A program made the translations under genes and the position numbers. A stretch of 64,000 nt of DNA from Nitratireductor thuwali (GTDB taxonomy: Bacteria; Pseudomonadota; Alphaproteobacteria; Rhizobiales; Rhizobiaceae), in the NCBI RefSeq assembly GCF_036621415.1, contig NZ_CP030941.1:2602001-2666000 (forward strand). Reading direction: 5' to 3'. Positions 53,952-64,000 of this stretch are shown piece after piece (within the stretch, counting starts at the first letter, position 1; every line of letters begins with the position of its first letter). The notes beneath the pieces are model-generated. The model did no database searches, was not told the origin of the DNA, and was given only the letters and a program-made list of their open reading frames with translations.

Positions 53952-54274
53952 CTCAAACCTCCTGTTTCGGGCCAGTGGCCGAGCGGCGATGCCATTCGGG
54001 CCGCAACAGTCTCGCGGACGGAAACGTTCCAGCGGGCCGTGCCAGGCATGGACCGGGCGCATCGTGGCGGCTGATTGGCGGGCCACGGCTTCGGCCGCGT
54101 TCCAATCAATGCAAGAAATTTCAGACACCGATTATTTGTTCATCTTGATTGACAAGTCGAGCGGCGACTGCTTCTATCGGCTCATCGATAGAAAAATCGA
54201 TTAATGAAATATCTTGCGATTGAGCCGGCGGGTGCCAGTCGATTGCGAGGGGAGGATCAAAAGTGGAGGAAACA
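53952..54274. promoter_or_regulatory. Divergent regulatory gap before the polyol-type operon
   Basis: A 323-base gap without a convincing gene. A good promoter for the plus-strand operon is present: TTGACA (54149-54154), 17 bases, TTCTAT (54172-54177). An inverted repeat overlaps the -10 box (54172-54193). A ribosome site GGAGGAAA directly precedes ATG 54275. The left part, next to the LysM gene, shows nothing recognisable. Confidence 0.55.
54172..54193. promoter_or_regulatory. Candidate operator for the SorC-family regulator
   Basis: TTCTATCG-N6-CGATAGAA, perfect eight-base arms, 22 bases in all. It overlaps the proposed -10 box and lies 82 bases before the first gene of the operon that also encodes a SorC-family regulator. 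Size and place fit a repressor site; binding is inferred. Confidence 0.55.
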
Positions 54275-55294
54275 ATGAAGACTGTTGGACTGGCCGGGGC
54301 GATCGCCGCGGCGACAATGACTATCGGTCTCGCCTCGACCGGCGGGGCGTCCGCGCAGAGCAAGTTCGCGTGTGAGCCGGGCGAAACATACATCATGAAT
54401 GTAATGGTCTCGGCTCACCCCTACTGGGTGCCCGTATATCAGGGCTTCAAGCAAGCGGCCGAGGCCATGGGCTGCGAGGCCGTGTTCTCGGGCACGCCCG
54501 ACTACGACATCACCAAGCAGATCGCCTCGTTCGAGCAGGATCTGGTGAAGAGCCCTGCCGGCATCCTGCTGCATCCCATGCAGTCGGACCCGTTCATCGA
54601 GCCGATCAACCGCGCGATCGAAAGCGGCGTCGAGATCGTGACATTCGCGGCGGATTCACCGGATTCGAACCGCACGGCCTACATCACCTCCGATAACCTC
54701 GCCGAAGCGAAGTTCGCGGCCGAAGAGATCGTCAAGCAGGTCGGCGAAAGCGGCGAGTATGCGGTGCTGGAGAACCCAGGGCAAAGCAATCACGACCTGC
54801 GTGTCACCGCTTTGGTCTCATACATGGAAGAGAATTACCCGGATATGAAGCTGGTTGGCCGCCAGGCCACCAACCAGGACAGCAACGCCGCCTACCGCGC
54901 GACCGCCTCGATCCTGCAGGCCAATCCGGATCTCGACGCGATGTGGATACCCGAGGCTGGCTCTGCCGAAGGTGCGGTTGCCGCCGTGCAGGAAGCCGAA
55001 GCCGATGTCCTCATCATGCACGCCGACATCACGCCGACCACTCTCGAACACATCAAGGCCGGCAACATCCACATGGCGCTGAACCCCAACCAGGGCATCC
55101 AGGGCTTCGTTGGCTTCGTCGCGACCTTCATGGCGGCACACTCCGACATGTTTGATCCGTTCAACGACTATAAGGTGTCCGGCTATAACCCGATGCAGAT
55201 CCCATTCATCGACAACGGCTTCGCGGTCATCACCAAGGAGAACGCCGATTCCTTCGACCTGAACGCATACATGGAAGGGCGCGATCCCAGCTAG
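54275..55294 (+). CDS. CUT2 sugar ABC importer, substrate-binding protein
   Basis: A 339-residue periplasmic binding protein with signal peptide (residues 1-27, GGASAQ). The CUT2/ribose-type pattern is seen: [74 protein letters not shown], and [34 protein letters not shown]. The ligand is unknown: a pentose, polyol, or an AI-2-like furanosyl compound would all fit the family. ATG 54275 has GGAGGAAACA upstream. A strong stem-loop follows the gene. It is the first gene of an operon running past the window edge. Confidence 0.9.
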
Positions 55295-55310
55295 GACCGC
55301 ATCCACGATC

Positions 55311-55338
55311 GCTCGCGCCGCACGACGGCGGCGCGAGC
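55311..55338 (+). other. Stem-loop after the substrate-binding-protein gene
   Basis: GCTCGCGCCGC (55311-55321) pairs perfectly with GCGGCGCGAGC (55328-55338) over a six-base loop. It starts 17 bases after the binding-protein stop and 31 bases before the ATPase gene, with no T-run. This is the third such hairpin in the window in the same relative position. Confidence 0.65.
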
Positions 55339-55368
55339 CCCTCAAATTCAACCGGGGAGGTCAGCGAC

Positions 55369-56898
55369 ATGTCTGAAGGCGCAGAATGCGACCTGATCCT
55401 CAAGATCACCAAGCTGACCAAATCGTTCGGGCCCATCCGCGCGTTGCGTGGGGTCGACTTCGAATTGCGGCGCGGCGAGATCCACGCGCTGGCCGGCGAG
55501 AACGGTGCCGGAAAGTCGACGCTCATGAACATCATCGACGGCATTCTCAGCCCGGACAGCGGCGAGATCCGCCTCGACGGCGAGCCTGTGACCATGACGT
55601 CCCCCGCCATGGCCCAGAGGCTCGGCATCGGCTTCGTGCACCAGGAAATCGCGCTGTGCCCCGACATCACGGTGGCGGAGAACATATTCATGGCGGCGAC
55701 CAGCACGAGCGGCGCGATGCTGATGGACTTTCGCGCACTTGAGCGCAAAGCCGCCGATATCCTCCATCGTTTGGCAGACATCGATCCCGCACTGCCGGTG
55801 CGGATGCTTTCAATATCGCAGCAGCAACTCGTCGAGATCGCCAAGGCGCTGACGCTGGACTGCCGCGTGCTCATCCTCGACGAGCCGACTGCGGCGCTGA
55901 CGGAGCGAGAATCGCAGATTCTCTTCGACATCATGCGCAACCTTGCGACGCAGGGGATCTCGATCATTTATATCTCGCACCGCATGGTCGAGATTTTCGA
56001 TAATTGCGACCGCGTGACCGTCCTCCGCGACGGCCAATACGTAGCCACCATGAATGTGGCCGAAACCACGCCCGGCGAGGTGGTGAGCGCGATGGTCGGC
56101 CGGGTGATCGACAGTCTCTATCCCGAAAAGCAGCGCGAGAACGAACGATCCGGCGAAACTATCCTCGACGTCCGCAGCCTGACCGAACGAACCCGTTTCA
56201 GCGACGTCTCCTTCGAGCTCAGAAAAGGAGAGATACTCGGCCTGGCTGGACTGATCGGCGCCGGGAGGAGCGAGATCGTCAAGGGGATATGCAGGCTAGA
56301 GGGTGAGGTGACAGGTGATGTCGCGCTCTTCGGGCGCAGGCTGGCGCTCCGCCACTACAGCGACAGCATAGCGGAAGGCATCGTCTATCTTTCCGAGGAC
56401 CGCAAGCAGGATGGCCTGTTCCTCGACATGTCGATCGCCGCCAACGTCTCCGCCCTCGATGTCGGCCAGGTGGCATCGAGAGCCGGTTTGATCGATGACG
56501 ACAGGGAGGCGGAGCTGGCCGAGCGGCTGGGAGGGCGTCTGAACCTGAAATGTGGGCATGTCGGACAGCCGGTATCCGCCCTGTCCGGCGGCAACCAACA
56601 GAAGGTCGCGATCGCCAAGATGCTGTCGGTCAATCCGAAGGTGATCTTTCTCGACGAACCGACACGCGGGGTCGACGTCGGCGCAAAGGCCGAGATCCAT
56701 CGCATCCTGCGCGAACTCGCGCGCAATGGGGTCGGCATCGTCGTCATCTCGTCCGAACTGCCCGAACTGATCGGCGTGTGCGATCGGGTGCTGGTCGTGC
56801 GCGAAGGGCGGGTTGCCGGTGAGGTAGCGGGCGACGAGATGACCGAGCGGAATATCATGTACCTGGCTTCAGTCGCGGAAGAGCGGAAGGAAGCCTGA
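55369..56898 (+). CDS. CUT2 sugar ABC importer, ATP-binding protein
   Basis: A 509-residue double ATPase. First domain: Walker [52 protein letters not shown]. Second domain: [74 protein letters not shown] 55369 has GGGGAGGT upstream. It ends one base into the start of the permease gene. It powers uptake with a single permease species, which would act as a homodimer. Confidence 0.93.
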
Positions 56899-57920
56899 TG
56901 AGTGCGGGGGATAACATGACGATGACAACCGTACCTTCGCAGAAGGAGCACCGATCCGGCGACGGCGTCGCCAGCCTCTTGAAGCGGCTCCTGCGCATGC
57001 GCGAAACCGGCTTGATCCTGATCATCCTGGCCCTGTTCATCGCCATGTCCTTCGCCTCACCTTATTTCCTGACCTGGGTGAACATGCGGGCCATGGCGAT
57101 GGCGTTCGCGGTGGAGGGTATCGTCGTCGTCGGCATGACGATCCTCCTCATCTCCGGCGGCATCGACCTTTCGGTCGGTTCGGTAACTGCCCTGGCGATG
57201 GTGATCGCCGGCTTGCTTTTCCTGAGTGGTGTCGATCCCTGGACCGCATCGGCAGTCGCGATTGCGGCCTGTGCGGCGATCGGCGCGACGATGGGATTCT
57301 TCGTCACCCGGGTTGGCCTGCATCACTTCATCGTATCGCTTGCCGTGATGGTCATCGCGCGGGGCCTGTGCCTTTTGGGCACCGGCGGACGGCCGCTGGG
57401 GCTTTATACGCTGCCGCCGGAGTTCAAGTTCATCGGGCAGGGCTCGATCGGCGTGATACCGGTCGTCATCGTGATCTTCGTTATTGTTGTCGTGGCCTTC
57501 GACTTCATGCTTCGCCGCACGACCTTGTTCCGCAAGGTCTTCTACACGGGCAGCAATGAGAAGGCCGCCGCCTATTCCGGCATCCGTACCAAGAAGGTGG
57601 TGTTCCTGACGACCACGCTCTGCTCGGCGCTGTGCGGCGTCGCCGGCGTCATCTACATGGCGCGTTTCGGCTCAGCACAGCCGACATTCGGTATCGGCAT
57701 GGAGCTCAACGTCATCGCTGCCGCGGTGATCGGCGGGGCCAGCCTGTCGGGCGGATCGGGGACGATCTTCGGAGCCATTCTGGGTGCTGTCCTGCTGTCG
57801 GTTGTGTCCAGCTCGCTGGCTCTTCTCGACGTGTCGGTCTACTGGCAGGATATCATCCGTGGCTCCATCCTTTTGGCCGCGGTCACGATCGACCACTACC
57901 TTAACAAGAGGCGCGGCTGA
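56898..57920 (+). CDS. CUT2 sugar ABC importer, permease
   Basis: A 340-residue permease with about nine hydrophobic segments: [118 protein letters not shown] and [58 protein letters not shown]. The ATG at 56898 overlaps the ATPase stop; ATG 56916, behind GGGGGAT, is a good alternative start. Only one permease gene is present, unlike the paired rhaP/rhaQ. Confidence 0.92.
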
Positions 57921-57946
57921 GCCTTCGAGCCGCATTGGATATCGCC

Positions 57947-58927
57947 ATGGCAGACAAGAAAGAAGACTTTGAATCGATCCGGCAGATCTACACGGTGCTC
58001 ATGCTGCATTTCGTGGAGGGCAAGAAGCAGTCTGAGATCGCCGCAGCGCTCAACCTGTCGGCATCGAAGGTCAACCGGCTGATCAATCAGGGCCGCAGGC
58101 TGGGCATGGTGAAGATCTCCATCGAGAGCCCGTTCCAAAGCCTTGTCGAGCTGGAGAAGCGCCTCGTCGAGACGGCGCATCTGACGGGCAGCCTCGTTAC
58201 ACCCACCGTCTCGGGCAGCGCCGACACCACGCTGCAGCAGGTGGGAAGGGCTGCGGCCAACCATCTTCTGGAAACGTTGCGGGACGGCGACGTCATCGCC
58301 ATCACCGGGGGCAAGGCCGTCAGCGCCGTCGTGGAGAACATGCAGCCCGAACGCGCCTTTGACGTCACCGTGGTGCCGCTCACCGGCGGCGTGCAGGGCA
58401 AATACTATACGGACGTCAACCACCTTGCCACGCGGCTTGCCGAGCGGCTGGGGGGCAGGGCGATGCTCATCCACGCACCACTCTTCGCCGAGAGCCGCGA
58501 GCAGCGCGACATGCTGATGGAGATGGCGTCGATCAAGGAGGTTTTCGACCTTGCCCGCAAGGCGGCGGTCGCGCTCGTCGGCATCGGGTCCATCCAGGCG
58601 CCGGGGTCCAGCTATTACGACCTGCATCCGCTGCCTAACCCGGACCGGGAACTGCTCGTCAAGAGCGGCGTCAGCGGGGAATTTCTGGCCCACCTCGTTC
58701 GAGAGGACGGCACGCTCGCCGACTATCCCCTCAACTCGCGTCTGGTGGCACTGGCGCCCGAAGAGCTTTCGCAGTGCCCGCGCACCATCGGCGTGGTGGC
58801 CGGGGTCGAAAAGGTTCTGCCCATTCGCGCGGCGCTCGCCGGGCGCTTTCTGGATACGCTCGTCCTGGACGAGGAAACCGCCGGGGCGGTTCTGGACACA
58901 ATGGAGAAATTACAGCATGTCGCATGA
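57947..58927 (+). CDS. SorC/DeoR-type sugar-sensing regulator (EryD/LsrR-like)
   Basis: A 326-residue regulator. The N-terminal helix-turn-helix is IYTVLMLHFVEGKKQSEIAAALNLSASKVNRLINQGRRLGMVKISIESPF (about residues 15-66); the sugar-binding domain has GRAAANHLLETLRDGDVIAITGGKAVSAVVENM and VVPLTGGVQGKYYTDVNHLATRLAERLGG, then VALVGIGSI and the C-terminal RTIGVVAGVEKVLPIRAALAGRFLDTLVLDEETAGAVL. The family senses phosphorylated sugars (LsrR: phospho-AI-2; EryD: erythritol). ATG 57947 is favoured over TTG 57935. It overlaps the next gene by 11 bases and probably binds the inverted repeat at 54172-54193. Confidence 0.9.
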   Translation: MADKKEDFESIRQIYTVLMLHFVEGKKQSEIAAALNLSASKVNRLINQGRRLGMVKISIESPFQSLVELEKRLVETAHLTGSLVTPTVSGSADTTLQQVGRAAANHLLETLRDGDVIAITGGKAVSAVVENMQPERAFDVTVVPLTGGVQGKYYTDVNHLATRLAERLGGRAMLIHAPLFAESREQRDMLMEMASIKEVFDLARKAAVALVGIGSIQAPGSSYYDLHPLPNPDRELLVKSGVSGEFLAHLVREDGTLADYPLNSRLVALAPEELSQCPRTIGVVAGVEKVLPIRAALAGRFLDTLVLDEETAGAVLDTMEKLQHVA

Positions 58928-59912
58928 GCTTCTGACGCGTGAAATCGGATCCTCCGGCATCAAGGCGTCCTGCATCGGCCTCGGTACCTGGGCCATCGGC
59001 GGCTGGATGTGGGGCGGCACTGACGAGGGGCAGTCGATCGCGGCCATACAGGCATCGCTGGATGAGGGCGTCAGCCTCATCGATACTGCGCCCGCCTACG
59101 GCCAAGGCCTATCTGAGGAGATCGTCGGCAAGGCGATCAAGGGCCGGCGAGACCAAGTGGTTCTGGCCACGAAGTGCGGCCTGGTCTGGCACACGACCAA
59201 GGGCAATCACTTCTTCGATTACGACGGCCGGCCGGTGCACCGGCACCTGGGAGCGGACTCCATCGCCTATGAGGTCGAGCAGAGCCTGCGGCGGCTCGGG
59301 ACCGACTACATCGATCTTTACATCACCCATTGGCAGGATCCGACCACGCCTGTCGAGGAAACGATGGCGGCGCTGGAAGCGCTGAAGGCGCAGGGCAAGA
59401 TCCGCTCGATAGGGGCGAGCAACCTGTCGCCCGAGGACCTTTCCGCCTATGTGGCCGCAGGCCAGCTCGACGCCGTGCAGGAAGAATACAGCATGGTCAA
59501 GCGCGACATTGAAACGACCCTGCTTCCCATCTGCGCCCGGCACGGCGTGTCGACCTTGAGCTATTCATCCCTCGCGCTCGGTCTCCTGTCCGGGCGGATC
59601 GGGCCGGATCGGGTCTTCGAGGGGGACGACCAGCGCAAGAATAACCTGCGTTTTTCGATAGCCAATCGGGAAAAGGTCACGCGTCTCATGGGTGCTATCC
59701 GGCCAATCGCGGAGAGCCAAAATGCTACCGAGGCGCAAATCGTGATCGCCTGGACGATTCAGCAGCCCGGCATCACCTTCGCTCTGTGCGGCGCGCGAAA
59801 TGCGGACCAAGCCAGGGAAAACGCCAGGGCAGGGCGCATTCGCCTGTCGAAAGATGAAATCGATACGATAAGCGAGGCAGCCACGCGCCATCTGACCGAC
59901 CTCGACGCCTAA
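58917..59912 (+). CDS. Aldo/keto reductase
   Basis: A 331-residue NAD(P)-dependent oxidoreductase of the AKR superfamily. The catalytic tetrad is complete: D56, Y61 (LIDTAPAYGQGLSEE), K86 (VLATKCGLVW) and H138 (YITHWQDP). Cofactor-site features IRSIGASNLSPEDL and FALCGARNADQARENARA are visible. It could interconvert an aldose and a polyol, or reduce an aldehyde released by the aldolase encoded downstream. ATG 58917 overlaps the SorC gene; this tight packing argues for a role in the same pathway. Substrate unknown. Confidence 0.88.
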   Translation: MSHELLTREIGSSGIKASCIGLGTWAIGGWMWGGTDEGQSIAAIQASLDEGVSLIDTAPAYGQGLSEEIVGKAIKGRRDQVVLATKCGLVWHTTKGNHFFDYDGRPVHRHLGADSIAYEVEQSLRRLGTDYIDLYITHWQDPTTPVEETMAALEALKAQGKIRSIGASNLSPEDLSAYVAAGQLDAVQEEYSMVKRDIETTLLPICARHGVSTLSYSSLALGLLSGRIGPDRVFEGDDQRKNNLRFSIANREKVTRLMGAIRPIAESQNATEAQIVIAWTIQQPGITFALCGARNADQARENARAGRIRLSKDEIDTISEAATRHLTDLDA

Positions 59913-59970
59913 CCACCGGAACGACAATCCCTCATGAGAACGCCGCTCAAGGGCGGCGAACGGCGGAGCC

Positions 59971-61704
59971 ATGCCTGAACAAAGAGACGAACACCTCGAA
60001 TTGATCCGCCGTGACGGCGCGTTCGACGTTGTCGTCGTCGGCGGCGGGATCAACGGCATTGGCGTCTATCGTGAGCTCGCACTGCAAGGCCTCCGCGTGC
60101 TTTTGGTCGAGCGCAATGATTTCTGCTCCGGCTGCAGTGCCGCTCCTTCGCGCATGATCCATGGCGGGCTGCGCTATCTTGAGAACGGCGAGTTCGATCT
60201 CGTCAGGGAATCGCTGCGCGAGCGCGACGCATTGCTGGCCAACGCGCCCCACATGGTGCGGCCCCTGGCGACGACGATACCCATCGCCTCGATCTTCTCG
60301 GGGCTGCTCAACGGCGCGGCCGGCTTTCTCGGCCTCACCAGCAAGCCGGCAAGCCGGGGTGCGCTGCCGATCAAAATAGGCCTTATGCTCTATGACTGGA
60401 CCACGCGCCGGCGCCGGGTCTTGCCCCGGCATCAATTTCGCGGCGCGCGGGAGACGCTGCGACTCTGGCCGGAATTGTCGCCACGCCTGCGCTTTTCCGC
60501 CACCTATTACGATGCATGGATCAGCTATCCCGAACGTCTCGGCTTGGAGTTGGTCCTCGATACGAAGCGTCTGGCGCCCGGCAGCGTGGCCTTGAACTAC
60601 GCGCAACTCTCGCGCTCAGGCGAAGCTTTCGAGATCGCCGACGGCGCCAGCGGCGAGCGCCTGTCCGTCGAGGCACGAGCAATCGTCAACGCGACCGGCG
60701 CATGGATCGACGAGGCGCAGGCCAGCCTGTTCGACCGCGTGGCGGATCCGCAGGAGACACTAGTCTCCGGCACCAAGGGCTCGCACCTGATCCTCGATTG
60801 CCCTGCGCTGCACGAGGCGCTGGGCGGGCACATGATCTTTTTCGAGAATTCCGACGGCCGGGTGTGCATTGTCTTTCCCTATCTCGGCAAGGTCCTGGCG
60901 GGGTCGACCGATATCCGCGTCGATGCGCCCGATCGAGTACGCTGCGAGCCGGAGGAGCGGGACTACATCCTCGACGCCCTGCGTCTCGCTTTTCCACGCA
61001 TTGCCCTGGCGGAGGAGGATGTCGTGTTCAGCTATAGCGGTATCCGCCCGCTGCCCCGCAGCGACCACGCGTTCACCGGCCGGATTTCGCGCAGCCATTT
61101 CATCCGTCGTCTGGACGGTTCCGTGCCCCAGTTCTGCATGGTGGGCGGCAAATGGACCACGTTCCGGGCATTCGCCGAGCAGACCGCCGATGCAGTGATG
61201 GCCGAGCTGCGCCATGAGCGTATGCGCGAGACGCTGGACCTGCCGATCGGCGGCGGTGCCGGCTTTCCGCAGCGGCCAGAAGAACTCCGGCACGAACTCG
61301 TGCGGGAGTTCGGGATCGGCGGCGAACGTGCCGCGCATCTGGTAGACGCTTACGGCACGCGCGCCAGGGAGGTGCTGCACTTCTGCATTGGCCGTGACGA
61401 CGATACGCCGCTTGACACGGCCGGTCCTATCACCGCGGCTGAAATCGTTTTCGTTGCAAAGCACGAATTGGTGGTGGGCCTTGCCGACGTCCTCCTGCGA
61501 CGAACCCCGCTGGCGATAAAGGGCGAAATATCACGCGCGCTCATCGAGCGCGTCGCGAAGGTCCTGGCAGTCGAGTCGGGCTGGGATGAAGGAAGAACCG
61601 GCAGCGAGATCGAGGCCTTCACCACGGACCTTGCAAATTATCACGGCGTCTCCCGAAAGATGCTCGACCAGCGAACCCACGACAGGAGTTTGACATGCGC
61701 GTAA
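59971..61704 (+). CDS. GlpD/EryB-like FAD-dependent polyol-phosphate dehydrogenase
   Basis: A 577-residue flavoprotein of the glycerol-3-phosphate dehydrogenase family. The FAD motif VVVVGGGINGIGVYRELALQG is at residues 20-40, followed by APSRMIHGGLRYLENGEFDLVRESL, YYDAWISYPERLGLELVLDTKRL, AIVNATGAWID, GTKGSHLIL and GGKWTTFRAFAEQTADAVM. The C-terminal domain (about 410-560) is the usual GlpD helical cap. It should oxidise a phosphorylated polyol at the membrane and pass electrons to quinone. EryB of the erythritol pathway is the closest functional precedent. It lies 58 bases after the reductase gene and overlaps the aldolase gene by ten bases. Confidence 0.88.
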   Translation: MPEQRDEHLELIRRDGAFDVVVVGGGINGIGVYRELALQGLRVLLVERNDFCSGCSAAPSRMIHGGLRYLENGEFDLVRESLRERDALLANAPHMVRPLATTIPIASIFSGLLNGAAGFLGLTSKPASRGALPIKIGLMLYDWTTRRRRVLPRHQFRGARETLRLWPELSPRLRFSATYYDAWISYPERLGLELVLDTKRLAPGSVALNYAQLSRSGEAFEIADGASGERLSVEARAIVNATGAWIDEAQASLFDRVADPQETLVSGTKGSHLILDCPALHEALGGHMIFFENSDGRVCIVFPYLGKVLAGSTDIRVDAPDRVRCEPEERDYILDALRLAFPRIALAEEDVVFSYSGIRPLPRSDHAFTGRISRSHFIRRLDGSVPQFCMVGGKWTTFRAFAEQTADAVMAELRHERMRETLDLPIGGGAGFPQRPEELRHELVREFGIGGERAAHLVDAYGTRAREVLHFCIGRDDDTPLDTAGPITAAEIVFVAKHELVVGLADVLLRRTPLAIKGEISRALIERVAKVLAVESGWDEGRTGSEIEAFTTDLANYHGVSRKMLDQRTHDRSLTCA

Positions 61705-62537
61705 GTACCAAGGCTCGAATGAACCGGCTGTTCACAAATGGGGGCTGCCTCGACGTTGCGATTGATCACGGCGTCTGCAATGAGCCAAGCTTCCTGGTCG
61801 GCCTCGAGGACATGGAGCGCGTCGTCGACACGCTTGTGCAGGCCAGGCCCGACGCGATCCAGATGACCTACGGCCAGGCGGACCTCCTCCAGAATCGCCC
61901 GGAAAAGGACAAGCCGGCGCTGGTGATGCGCGTCGACATGGGCAATCCCTACAATGCCGAACGCCATCGGGTGATGTGGTCGATGCTGCAGAATCATGAC
62001 GAGCCGATTATCGGCGCGCTCGAAATGGACGCGGCCTGCGTGGTGGTGAATCTGTTCATGCTGCCGGACGAGCCCGAGCTTTTCCGACAGTGTGTCGGAA
62101 ATATCAGCAGAGTGCGCGAGGCTTGCCACAGATACGGCATGCCTCTCATGATCGAGCCGCTTGTGATGCTGCCGAACGAGGTGCGCGGCGGCTATCAGGT
62201 CGACGGCAATGCGGAAAAGATCGTCACGCTGGTGCGGCTCGCCTCGGAGATGGGTGCCGACATTATCAAGGCCGATCCGACCGAGGACCCCGAGGACTTT
62301 CACCGGGTCGTGGAGGCTGCGCGCGTTCCGGTGCTCGTGCGTGGCGGCGGCAAGGACGACCTGAAGGGCGTGCTGGAGAAATCGGCGGCCCTGATGGCGC
62401 AAGGGGCGAAAGGCATGGTCTATGGCCGCAACATCTATCAGCACGCCAATCCCAAGGCCGTGGTGAACGCATTGATGGCCCTGATCCACCAGGACGCAAG
62501 TGGGGAAACAGCCTGGGAGGTCTACAATCGTGGCTGA
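61695..62537 (+). CDS. LsrF/DhnA-type class I aldolase
   Basis: A 280-residue TIM-barrel enzyme of the DhnA fructose-bisphosphate aldolase/LsrF family. The active-site features are LDVAIDHG (residues 19-26), the Schiff-base lysine K192 in MGADIIKADPTEDPE, VPVLVRGGGKD and GAKGMVYGRNIYQHANP (phosphate-binding glycines). It would cleave a ketose phosphate, or act as a thiolase like LsrF on phospho-AI-2. ATG 61695 overlaps the dehydrogenase stop and its own stop overlaps the kinase start by eight bases, so it is firmly in the operon. Its presence differs from the erythritol pathway, which uses isomerases instead. Confidence 0.85.
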   Translation: MRVSTKARMNRLFTNGGCLDVAIDHGVCNEPSFLVGLEDMERVVDTLVQARPDAIQMTYGQADLLQNRPEKDKPALVMRVDMGNPYNAERHRVMWSMLQNHDEPIIGALEMDAACVVVNLFMLPDEPELFRQCVGNISRVREACHRYGMPLMIEPLVMLPNEVRGGYQVDGNAEKIVTLVRLASEMGADIIKADPTEDPEDFHRVVEAARVPVLVRGGGKDDLKGVLEKSAALMAQGAKGMVYGRNIYQHANPKAVVNALMALIHQDASGETAWEVYNRG

Positions 62538-64000
62538 GCGCGGTCGCTATCTCCTCGGCCTTGATGCCGGCAATACAATTATCAAGGCAGTCCTATTCGA
62601 TCTCGAGGGCAGGCCACTGGCGACACATGCCATCGACGGCAGGTCGCATACCCCGCATCCCGGACATGTGGAGCGCGACCTTGAGGAGCTGTGGTCCAAC
62701 GCGCGCGAAACGATCGGCAACTGCATTTCAGCTGCGGGGGTCGACCCACACGAGATTGCGGGGATCGGCTGCGCGGGCCACGGCAACGGCCTCTACCTGC
62801 TCGACAAGGCCCAAAAGTCCTTGCTCGGCATCCAGTCGCTCGATACGCGTGCCGCCGATCTTGCCACCAGCATGTCGGCAGCGGCCGGCGCTCCGCTACA
62901 CGAGATTTGCCTGCAGAAACCGTGGCCGTCGCAGACGCCGACGCTCCTTGCCTGGGTGAAGGCCAACGCGCCCGAGATCTACCGGCGCACCGGGACGGTG
63001 ATGCTGTGCAAGGACTTCATCACCTTCCGGCTCACAGGTGAGCGCGTCAGCGATAAATCCGACATGTCGGGCTGCGGTCTGCTGCGCATGCCGGACTGCA
63101 CCTATGACAACCAGCTCCTGTCGCTCTACGGGCTGGCCGACGCGAGGCCGATGCTGCCGCGCCTCGTTGATTCGGCCGAGATCGCCGGCACTGTCTCGGC
63201 GCGCGCGGCCGCAGAGACCGGCCTTGCCGAGGGTACGCCGGTTATCGGCGGTTTCTTCGACGTCGTCGCCGGCGCGATGGGAGCCGGCGTGATAGCGCCA
63301 GGCGAAGCATCGATCATCGTCGGCACATGGTCTATCAACCAGGTGTTCTCCGAACGGCCGGTCGTCGATCCCTCCATCTTCATGGTGTCGGGTTTCGGGC
63401 CAGGTCGCTTCCTCAATATCGAATCGAGCGCCACCTCGGCCGCCAATCTCGAATGGTATGTCCGCGAACTTGTCGAGCGCGGCGGCCATCACGACGATCC
63501 CTTCGGATACTGCAATGGGCTCGTCGGATCCGTCGATCCTGCGGCTGACGATCCCTTCTTCCATCCCTTCCTGTACGGATCGGGGCAGGATCCGGCGCAC
63601 CGCGCCGGCTTTTACGGCCTAGCAGGCTGGCACGGCGAGGGCCATCTGCTGCGCGCCCTCTTTGAAGGCGTGATGTTCGAGCACAGGCGACATGTCGGCA
63701 TGCTGGCGAATGCCGGCGTGACTTTCGAAAGGGCAGTAATCTCGGGCGGCGGCTCGCGCAGCCTGCACTGGCCGCAGATATTCGCCGACGGGCTTGGCGT
63801 TCCGATCACGGTCGCCGAGGCGCGCGAGACCGGGGCCTTGGGCGCGGCCATCGGCGCTGGGGTGGGCACGGTCAAGTTCGCCGACTACGAAAGCGGCATC
63901 GCGGCGATGACCCGGCCCAAGGCGGTGTTCCAGCCGAATGCGGCGATGAAGAACCACTATGACAGGCGCTACCGCGTCTACACCGGCCTGACGGCAGTTC
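62530..64000 (+). CDS. FGGY carbohydrate kinase, truncated by the window end
   Basis: 490 codons without a stop at the window edge. GTG 62530 gives MAERGRYLLGLDAGNTIIKAVLFDLEGRPLATH, the phosphate-1 motif of the FGGY/actin fold. Further landmarks are GIGCAGHGNGLYLLD, MLCKDFITFRLTGERVSDKSDMSG (FGGY signature region), the catalytic aspartate in PVIGGFFDVVAGAMGAGV, IIVGTWSINQV and RAVISGGGSRSLHWPQIFADGLGVPITVAEARETGALGAAIGAG. It resembles EryA and LyxK-type kinases. It probably phosphorylates the imported sugar or polyol before the FAD dehydrogenase acts. Only the last few residues should be missing. Confidence 0.9.
   Translation, partial: MAERGRYLLGLDAGNTIIKAVLFDLEGRPLATHAIDGRSHTPHPGHVERDLEELWSNARETIGNCISAAGVDPHEIAGIGCAGHGNGLYLLDKAQKSLLGIQSLDTRAADLATSMSAAAGAPLHEICLQKPWPSQTPTLLAWVKANAPEIYRRTGTVMLCKDFITFRLTGERVSDKSDMSGCGLLRMPDCTYDNQLLSLYGLADARPMLPRLVDSAEIAGTVSARAAAETGLAEGTPVIGGFFDVVAGAMGAGVIAPGEASIIVGTWSINQVFSERPVVDPSIFMVSGFGPGRFLNIESSATSAANLEWYVRELVERGGHHDDPFGYCNGLVGSVDPAADDPFFHPFLYGSGQDPAHRAGFYGLAGWHGEGHLLRALFEGVMFEHRRHVGMLANAGVTFERAVISGGGSRSLHWPQIFADGLGVPITVAEARETGALGAAIGAGVGTVKFADYESGIAAMTRPKAVFQPNAAMKNHYDRRYRVYTGLTAV

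Follow-up and report, generated by a model that had tools for sequence, protein, structure and literature searches.

Organisation and conservation of the operon

The stretch of DNA analysed here (the window, 64,000 nucleotides) covers bases 2602001-2666000 of contig C1 in the 4.75 Mb genome of Nitratireductor thuwali, and ends within a putative catabolic operon for a polyol or a related compound, which is the subject of this work. Open reading frame (ORF) and profile calls delimit eight genes, all on the plus strand and head to tail from position 54275 through the window end. The first three encode a CUT2 importer composed of a periplasmic binding protein (SBP, 54275..55294; Peripla_BP_4, 173.6 bits), an ATPase (55369..56898; ABC_tran, in two stretches) and one permease subunit (56898..57920; BPD_transp_2, 131 bits). 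They are followed by a SorC-family regulator with a sugar-binding domain (SorC, 57935..58927; PF04198, 194 bits), an aldo/keto reductase (AKR, 58920..59912; PF00248, 231 bits), a flavin adenine dinucleotide (FAD)-dependent dehydrogenase of the GlpD superfamily (FADDH, 577 amino acids, 59971..61704), a DhnA-type class I aldolase with the Schiff-base lysine K192 (ALD, 280 amino acids, 61695..62537; PF01791, 190 bits) and an FGGY kinase of uncertain start (KIN, 62500..64000). These domain profiles bear out the gene list of an earlier reading of the sequence (the original prediction), which also described overlaps joining most genes. Indeed, 4 of the 7 junctions overlap: ATPase and permease by 1 bp, SorC and AKR by 8 bp, FADDH and ALD by 10 bp, and ALD and KIN by 38 bp, provided that KIN starts at the GTG at 62500. 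The operon itself is real; its extent had been underestimated. KIN is truncated by the window, its stop being read in the extended sequence at L004:11056 (~64056 in the numbering of the window), and a gene encoding a GMC oxidoreductase lies 164 bp past this stop, outside the window (L004:11221-12834, or ~64221-65834). The core operon comprises nine genes and is bigger than the window showed.

Of 566 relatives confirmed in the search by aldolase similarity, the best 80 provided the loci in which conservation was examined, a sample that leans to close kin. In 69 of the 80 loci, all eight window genes lie within 11 kb and have the same order and strand, so that this arrangement is not due to chance. 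As for the 11 other loci, contig ends truncate three, the regulator is elsewhere in one and seven have a different importer. The series SorC-AKR-FADDH-ALD-KIN is found in order in 78 loci, and FADDH, ALD and KIN are all present in the 80 loci. In 76 loci the sequence extends 1.9 kb or more past KIN, and GMC is present in 68 of them: it directly follows KIN in 52 of the 76 and starts 0.7 kb on in one more. A zinc-type dehydrogenase gene comes right after KIN in 16 of the 76, with GMC next in 15 of these 16. Apart from the operon, zinc-type dehydrogenase and importer genes, flanking genes are seldom common between loci, and the gene neighbours were rejected as a guide to the substrate on this ground. 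Two genes deserve mention for their state: a FADDH frame with one internal TGA (G361:C3:370525-372180) and, in Alloyangia pacifica, a GMC gene annotated in two pieces and possibly broken (L088:14778-15850).

The distribution of the operon is patchy but wide. An aldolase of at least 65% identity occurs in 9 of 398 phylum genomes and in 9 of 385 class genomes (even draws, the window's own genome being in both). The gene set is found in many named genera of Alphaproteobacteria, including Mesorhizobium, Devosia, Ruegeria, Roseibium and Dongia; orthologous operons are also carried by Sinorhizobium meliloti and Rhizobium johnstonii.

Upstream of the binding protein gene lie two operator-like palindromes, recorded without strand: TGCAAGAAATTTCA at 54110..54123 (22.4 bits, the matrix being built on the upstream regions of 70 orthologous loci) and TGAAATATCTTGCG at 54205..54218, 95 bp downstream of the first (19.4 bits, match on the minus strand). 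The palindrome TGMAAKWWATTKCA is common to these 70 regions, which were kept after dropping the loci with a binding protein less than 70% identical or unmatched; a separate look was taken at four plasmid loci and at the ten loci that carry the other importer. Matrix sites occur in 70/70 upstream regions and in 1/83 control pieces from kinase-gene interiors. The first value is partly built in, since the matrix was trained on the same regions, contrary to the control and to the count of the word AAATTTCA, found in 56/70 regions when the commonest word of shuffled regions reaches 5. In the whole genome, the only exact match to TGMAAKWWMTTKCA is the upstream window copy (54110), the copy at 54205 having one mismatch; the orthologues of S. 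meliloti and R. johnstonii carry perfect TGAAATATATTTCA. The SorC protein probably binds both palindromes and would respond to a phosphorylated intermediate. Beyond the two window sites, the genome contains 12 one-mismatch sites, against 6 in all for the reversed control pattern. The eight regions around 8 of these 12 sites were inspected by eye for regulon members indicative of the substrate, an approach that was not retained: no regulon is claimed, because AT-rich chance or the operator of another regulator explains these sites equally. Among the regions inspected, the clearest sugar context is a divergent sugar locus of the same genome (L178:2235-13205) with a similar palindrome at L178:7916. 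Its genes encode a mannitol dehydrogenase, an SDR, a ROK-like protein and a PF01791 aldolase, together with a CUT2 importer and a PfkB kinase.

In ten loci the usual importer is supplemented or replaced by a CUT2 importer of a second type, which has two permease families. This second importer stands downstream of the enzymes, from ~15.6 kb, in L020, L021 and L027 (two Ruegeria and one Shimia), each with its own site, and replaces the usual importer upstream of SorC in L028, L040, L057, L072, L076, L082 and L084. Operator-like sites of at least 11 bits are located at the start of this second importer in 9/10 loci (not L082).

Families of the encoded proteins

FADDH displays the domains DAO (157.6 bits) and DAO_C (87.6 bits), well above the cut-offs of 27.9 and 31.4. 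In the dehydrogenase tree (17 rows, including one EryB), its clade stands apart, with support values of 100/100, from EryB, from GlpD and from the GlpD-like protein encoded elsewhere in the genome. By sequence FADDH is thus a member of the GlpD superfamily outside the EryB/GlpD clade, and the label "GlpD/EryB-like" is valid at the superfamily level, not for the EryB clade. The rows of both trees, 25 for kinases and 17 for dehydrogenases, were hand-picked, tblastn having matched 118 and 114 loci.

KIN contains the domains FGGY_N (176.9 bits) and FGGY_C (82.7 bits), both above cut-offs, and its catalytic aspartate D240 is invariant in 12 aligned kinases. With the LsrK model it reaches 190.9 bits for a cut-off of 528, and its sequence assigns it neither to LsrK nor to XylB. 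In the kinase tree EryA, on a long branch, is neighbour to the KIN group with support of 90/87; KIN and EryA share 27% identity. The comparison with known clades called for by the original prediction gives EryA, weakly, as the nearest characterised relative among those tested.

ALD bears the characters of DhnA-type class I aldolases, namely PF01791 over cut-off, the Schiff-base lysine and the motifs binding the phosphate of dihydroxyacetone phosphate (DHAP). The residues K192, D24, H25, D81, E154, G217, G218, G244 and R245 are invariant in 21 sequences, that of the window included, in agreement with the K192 aldolase first proposed. Its description as "LsrF-like" is right for the DhnA-type superfamily and wrong for LsrF itself (104.1 bits with the LsrF model, cut-off 297). 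The predicted structural model of ALD is closest to ADH synthase, which binds DHAP. LacD/YihT was considered as the family of ALD and rejected: YihT has the same Glu-Pro position, yet DhnA-type ADH synthase, LsrF and FBP (fructose-bisphosphate) aldolases rank higher in both sequence and fold. Public records name two enzymes of the operon glycerol-3-phosphate dehydrogenase and fructose-bisphosphate aldolase, names that our tests do not support; the protein matches listed were the closest 120 of ~8000 scored.

YdjG of Escherichia coli (41% identity) and General stress protein 69 (1pz1, the best solved relative) come first for AKR among models and solved relatives. The best NCBIfam model for the GMC protein is choline dehydrogenase, with 559 bits for a cut-off of 605; being under this cut-off, it is taken simply as a GMC enzyme. 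Six NCBIfam models match SBP, all far below cut-offs, and no close solved relative was found, the best being 7x0g (135 bits). The binding protein was consequently not retained as a guide to the substrate: the search against solved structures gave only distant sugar-binding proteins, and the predicted model is mediocre (pLDDT 74.8, pTM 0.65). The ATPase is best matched by the xylose ATPase model (516 bits, cut-off 699). The regulator shares 34% identity with EryD and 28% with LsrR.

Putative pathway and alternatives

The gene content and order, the families, conserved residues, phylogenetic placement and operator-like sites described above are observations; the catalytic steps that follow are inferred from family and context. 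We consider it probable that this SorC-regulated operon serves the catabolism of a polyol, or of an aldose first reduced to a polyol, by a logic of phosphorylation, oxidation and cleavage. The compound would be taken up by the CUT2 importer, and the FGGY kinase would phosphorylate a terminal hydroxyl to give a polyol phosphate. FADDH would then oxidise the neighbouring secondary alcohol with its FAD, yielding a ketose 1-phosphate that ALD, through the Schiff base on K192, may cleave into DHAP and an aldehyde. AKR and the GMC oxidoreductase would process the aldehyde or alcohol, unless one of them acts before the kinase. A more specific proposal, to which we give somewhat less than an even chance, is a new polyol pathway, present in Alphaproteobacteria and in related forms in other Proteobacteria, that applies the logic of glycerol catabolism to longer polyols: an FGGY kinase producing a polyol 1-phosphate, a new clade of the GlpD superfamily producing a ketose 1-phosphate and a DhnA aldolase releasing DHAP and an aldehyde. 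The substrate would be a widespread compound missing from the usual carbon panels; examples would be rare pentitols and hexitols, or alditols that are branched, of the deoxy type or of higher carbon number. The glycerol pathway indeed also uses a kinase (GlpK), then a FAD dehydrogenase (GlpD) acting on the phosphorylated polyol; however, GlpK and GlpD are distant from the operon enzymes (21% and 29%) and separate GlpK- and GlpD-like genes are present in the genome.

The pair formed by KIN and FADDH is also found in other contexts. The pair of G308 (38% and 43%) precedes another DhnA aldolase (29%). In G379, a distant KIN (30%) and FADDH (45%) lie divergently to the importer, AKR and ALD (72%). 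The closest of the compared relatives is the adjacent pair of FGGY and GlpD-like genes in R. johnstonii RL_RS33905-33935 (FADDH 44%, KIN 40%), which is accompanied by an RbsB-like importer; this system differs by a DeoR regulator, a DUF2291 protein and the lack of an annotated DhnA aldolase, a class II FBP aldolase being located next door in a convergent unit. It corresponds to L100:3837-12514, adjoins the likely ery cluster and is likewise uncharacterised. Because the pair occurs with other aldolases or without an annotated one, KIN and FADDH seem to form a reusable module, with the aldolase as an addition. Another locus (L130:1177-8275) carries the enzyme set in divergent form, next to genes that by eye resemble a bifunctional class II aldolase/dehydrogenase, a second FGGY kinase and a HAD protein. 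A sister aldolase, 51-55% identical to ALD, was also detected in L132:9943-13530, L090:1801-5478 and L133; the gene families around it were tested in L132 and taken from annotation in L090, L133 being an aldolase match only.

Several observations weigh against the phosphorylation-oxidation-cleavage scheme. The presence of both AKR and the GMC enzyme has no neat explanation and is, with the order of the steps, its weakest point, and GMC was not found in 8 of the 76 loci that reach far enough past KIN. Some loci have a KIN-FADDH pair without annotated aldolase within 9 kb (the plasmid annotation being incomplete), so the product of FADDH need not feed an aldolase. The operon of the sister aldolase encodes a Gfo/Idh oxidoreductase, a protein of the D-lyxose/D-mannose isomerase family, a PfkB kinase and a CUT2 importer; its isomerase and kinase could yield the ketose phosphate that KIN and FADDH would yield here. 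ALD has E154 and L156 at the positions of the tryptophan and the catalytic tyrosine of wild-type archaeal FBP aldolase, and its chemistry may differ on account of these replacements. Finally, the deep nodes of the kinase tree are weak and its branches long, the kinase of G379 is placed apart from where its dehydrogenase partner falls, and a DARA-like stretch occupies the LDxRA position in LsrK as well.

The order of the steps is what separates our scheme from one in which an aldose or ketose is imported and AKR reduces the aldose to an alditol, or GMC oxidises an alcohol, before the kinase acts, the rest being the same. Aldose reductases occur among AKRs, and the second importer of ten loci (seven replacing, three added, sites in 9/10) would fit two related compounds entering a single set of enzymes; nevertheless, the nearest relatives of AKR, YdjG and General stress protein 69, are small-aldehyde reductases, and we regard this order as rather unlikely. 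The relationship with YdjG recalls E. coli ydjGHIJ (octuluronate kinase, 1-phosphate aldolase), which shares with the operon an AKR, a kinase, an aldolase and further oxidoreductases. By analogy, the operon could serve a pathway for higher-carbon or acid sugars, a kinase and an aldolase cutting a large keto-acid sugar 1-phosphate and AKR reducing the aldehyde. We give this a low probability: ALD is unrelated by sequence to YdjI (E 0.63), KIN is an FGGY kinase whereas YdjH is of the PfkB type, the transporter and regulator of ydj are of other kinds, and ydj, as annotated, is without a GlpD-type enzyme.

Erythritol catabolism in rhizobia and Brucella depends on eryABCD with tpiB/rpiB. Like it, the operon has an FGGY polyol kinase and a FAD dehydrogenase of the GlpD superfamily, and a SorC-type regulator is present in the ery cluster of R. 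johnstonii; the position of EryA in the kinase tree and a regulator nearer to EryD than to LsrR go in the same direction. It is nonetheless very improbable that the operon encodes a variant route for erythritol or threitol in which cleavage yields DHAP and formaldehyde, since FADDH falls in another clade than EryB, an aldolase replaces the isomerases, AKR and GMC are added, and no gene of eryC, rpiB or tpiB type was recognised past KIN in L004 among ORFs of at least 150 amino acids, or annotated beside the orthologues of R. johnstonii, Shinella and Rhizobium SL42. Moreover, R. johnstonii 3841 possesses this operon together with an apparent complete ery cluster on pRL12, so that the operon should not be needed for erythritol in this strain. 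As for the import and degradation of autoinducer-2 (AI-2) or a related signal in the manner of Lsr, it is suggested by the CUT2 importer, SorC-family regulator, FGGY kinase and DhnA-fold aldolase and appears extremely improbable. The operon proteins are below the cut-offs of the LsrK, LsrF, LsrB, LsrA, LsrC and LsrR models, the binding protein reaching 48.7 bits with LsrB (cut-off 384) for 19% identity over 216 residues. There is one permease gene instead of two (LsrC and LsrD in E. coli) and three extra redox enzymes. No lsrG was found in the extended operon, or annotated in the three orthologous operons named above; this gene (291 bp) has no room, because KIN directly follows ALD and the gap between KIN and GMC is only 164 bp.

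The extension past 64000, proposed as a check for isomerase genes or lsrG, thus revealed the GMC gene instead, and the claim that the combination fits neither known pathway stands. The sequence of kinase, FAD dehydrogenase and aldolase put forward in the original prediction is retained as the most probable scheme, whereas the operator-like sites were absent from that prediction. The idea of an operon mixing lsr-like and ery-like parts was misleading: the likeness to lsr is limited to the large families CUT2, SorC and DhnA, that to ery being somewhat better. The parts belong to known superfamilies, their combination and several subfamilies matching no characterised pathway tested.

Orthologous operons in laboratory rhizobia

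The orthologous operon of S. meliloti 2011 is carried by pSymB (L086) and probably corresponds to SMb20496-SMb20504, as inferred from neighbouring gene numbers. In the passages available from the respective papers, SMb20504 is a sugar-binding protein (PMC12542648), SMb20505 is tfxG (PMC4053727) and SMb20495 is a large TPR protein (PMC5498481). A long frame, TPR-like by eye, is present beyond the GMC gene in L086. The psicose genes SMb20484-20487 (PMC4961836, passages available), close by gene number, belong to a different S. meliloti locus and were rejected. Carbon tests were made with deletions covering ~98% of pSymB, and the passages available from that source name other loci only (PMC4961836). 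Polyols used by S. meliloti are listed in parts of PMC4207669 and PMC10433430, the accessible text of the former containing no SMb20 tag; likewise, the accessible part of PMC3245297 lists nine FGGY functions and holds nothing on this operon. No description of the gene set was found in open PMC papers searched for the gene set or pathway, for the S. meliloti and R. johnstonii genes and for ydj, longer listings being judged by title and abstract opening and subscription papers being mostly outside this scope.

The gene order is conserved across many soil, plant-associated and marine bacteria. Such conservation of an uncharacterised operon suggests that soil, plant or marine environments commonly offer a carbon compound for which no breakdown has yet been described. 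S. meliloti and R. johnstonii carry the operon, and deletions are easy there; the operon lends itself to a screen for its substrate in a laboratory rhizobium.

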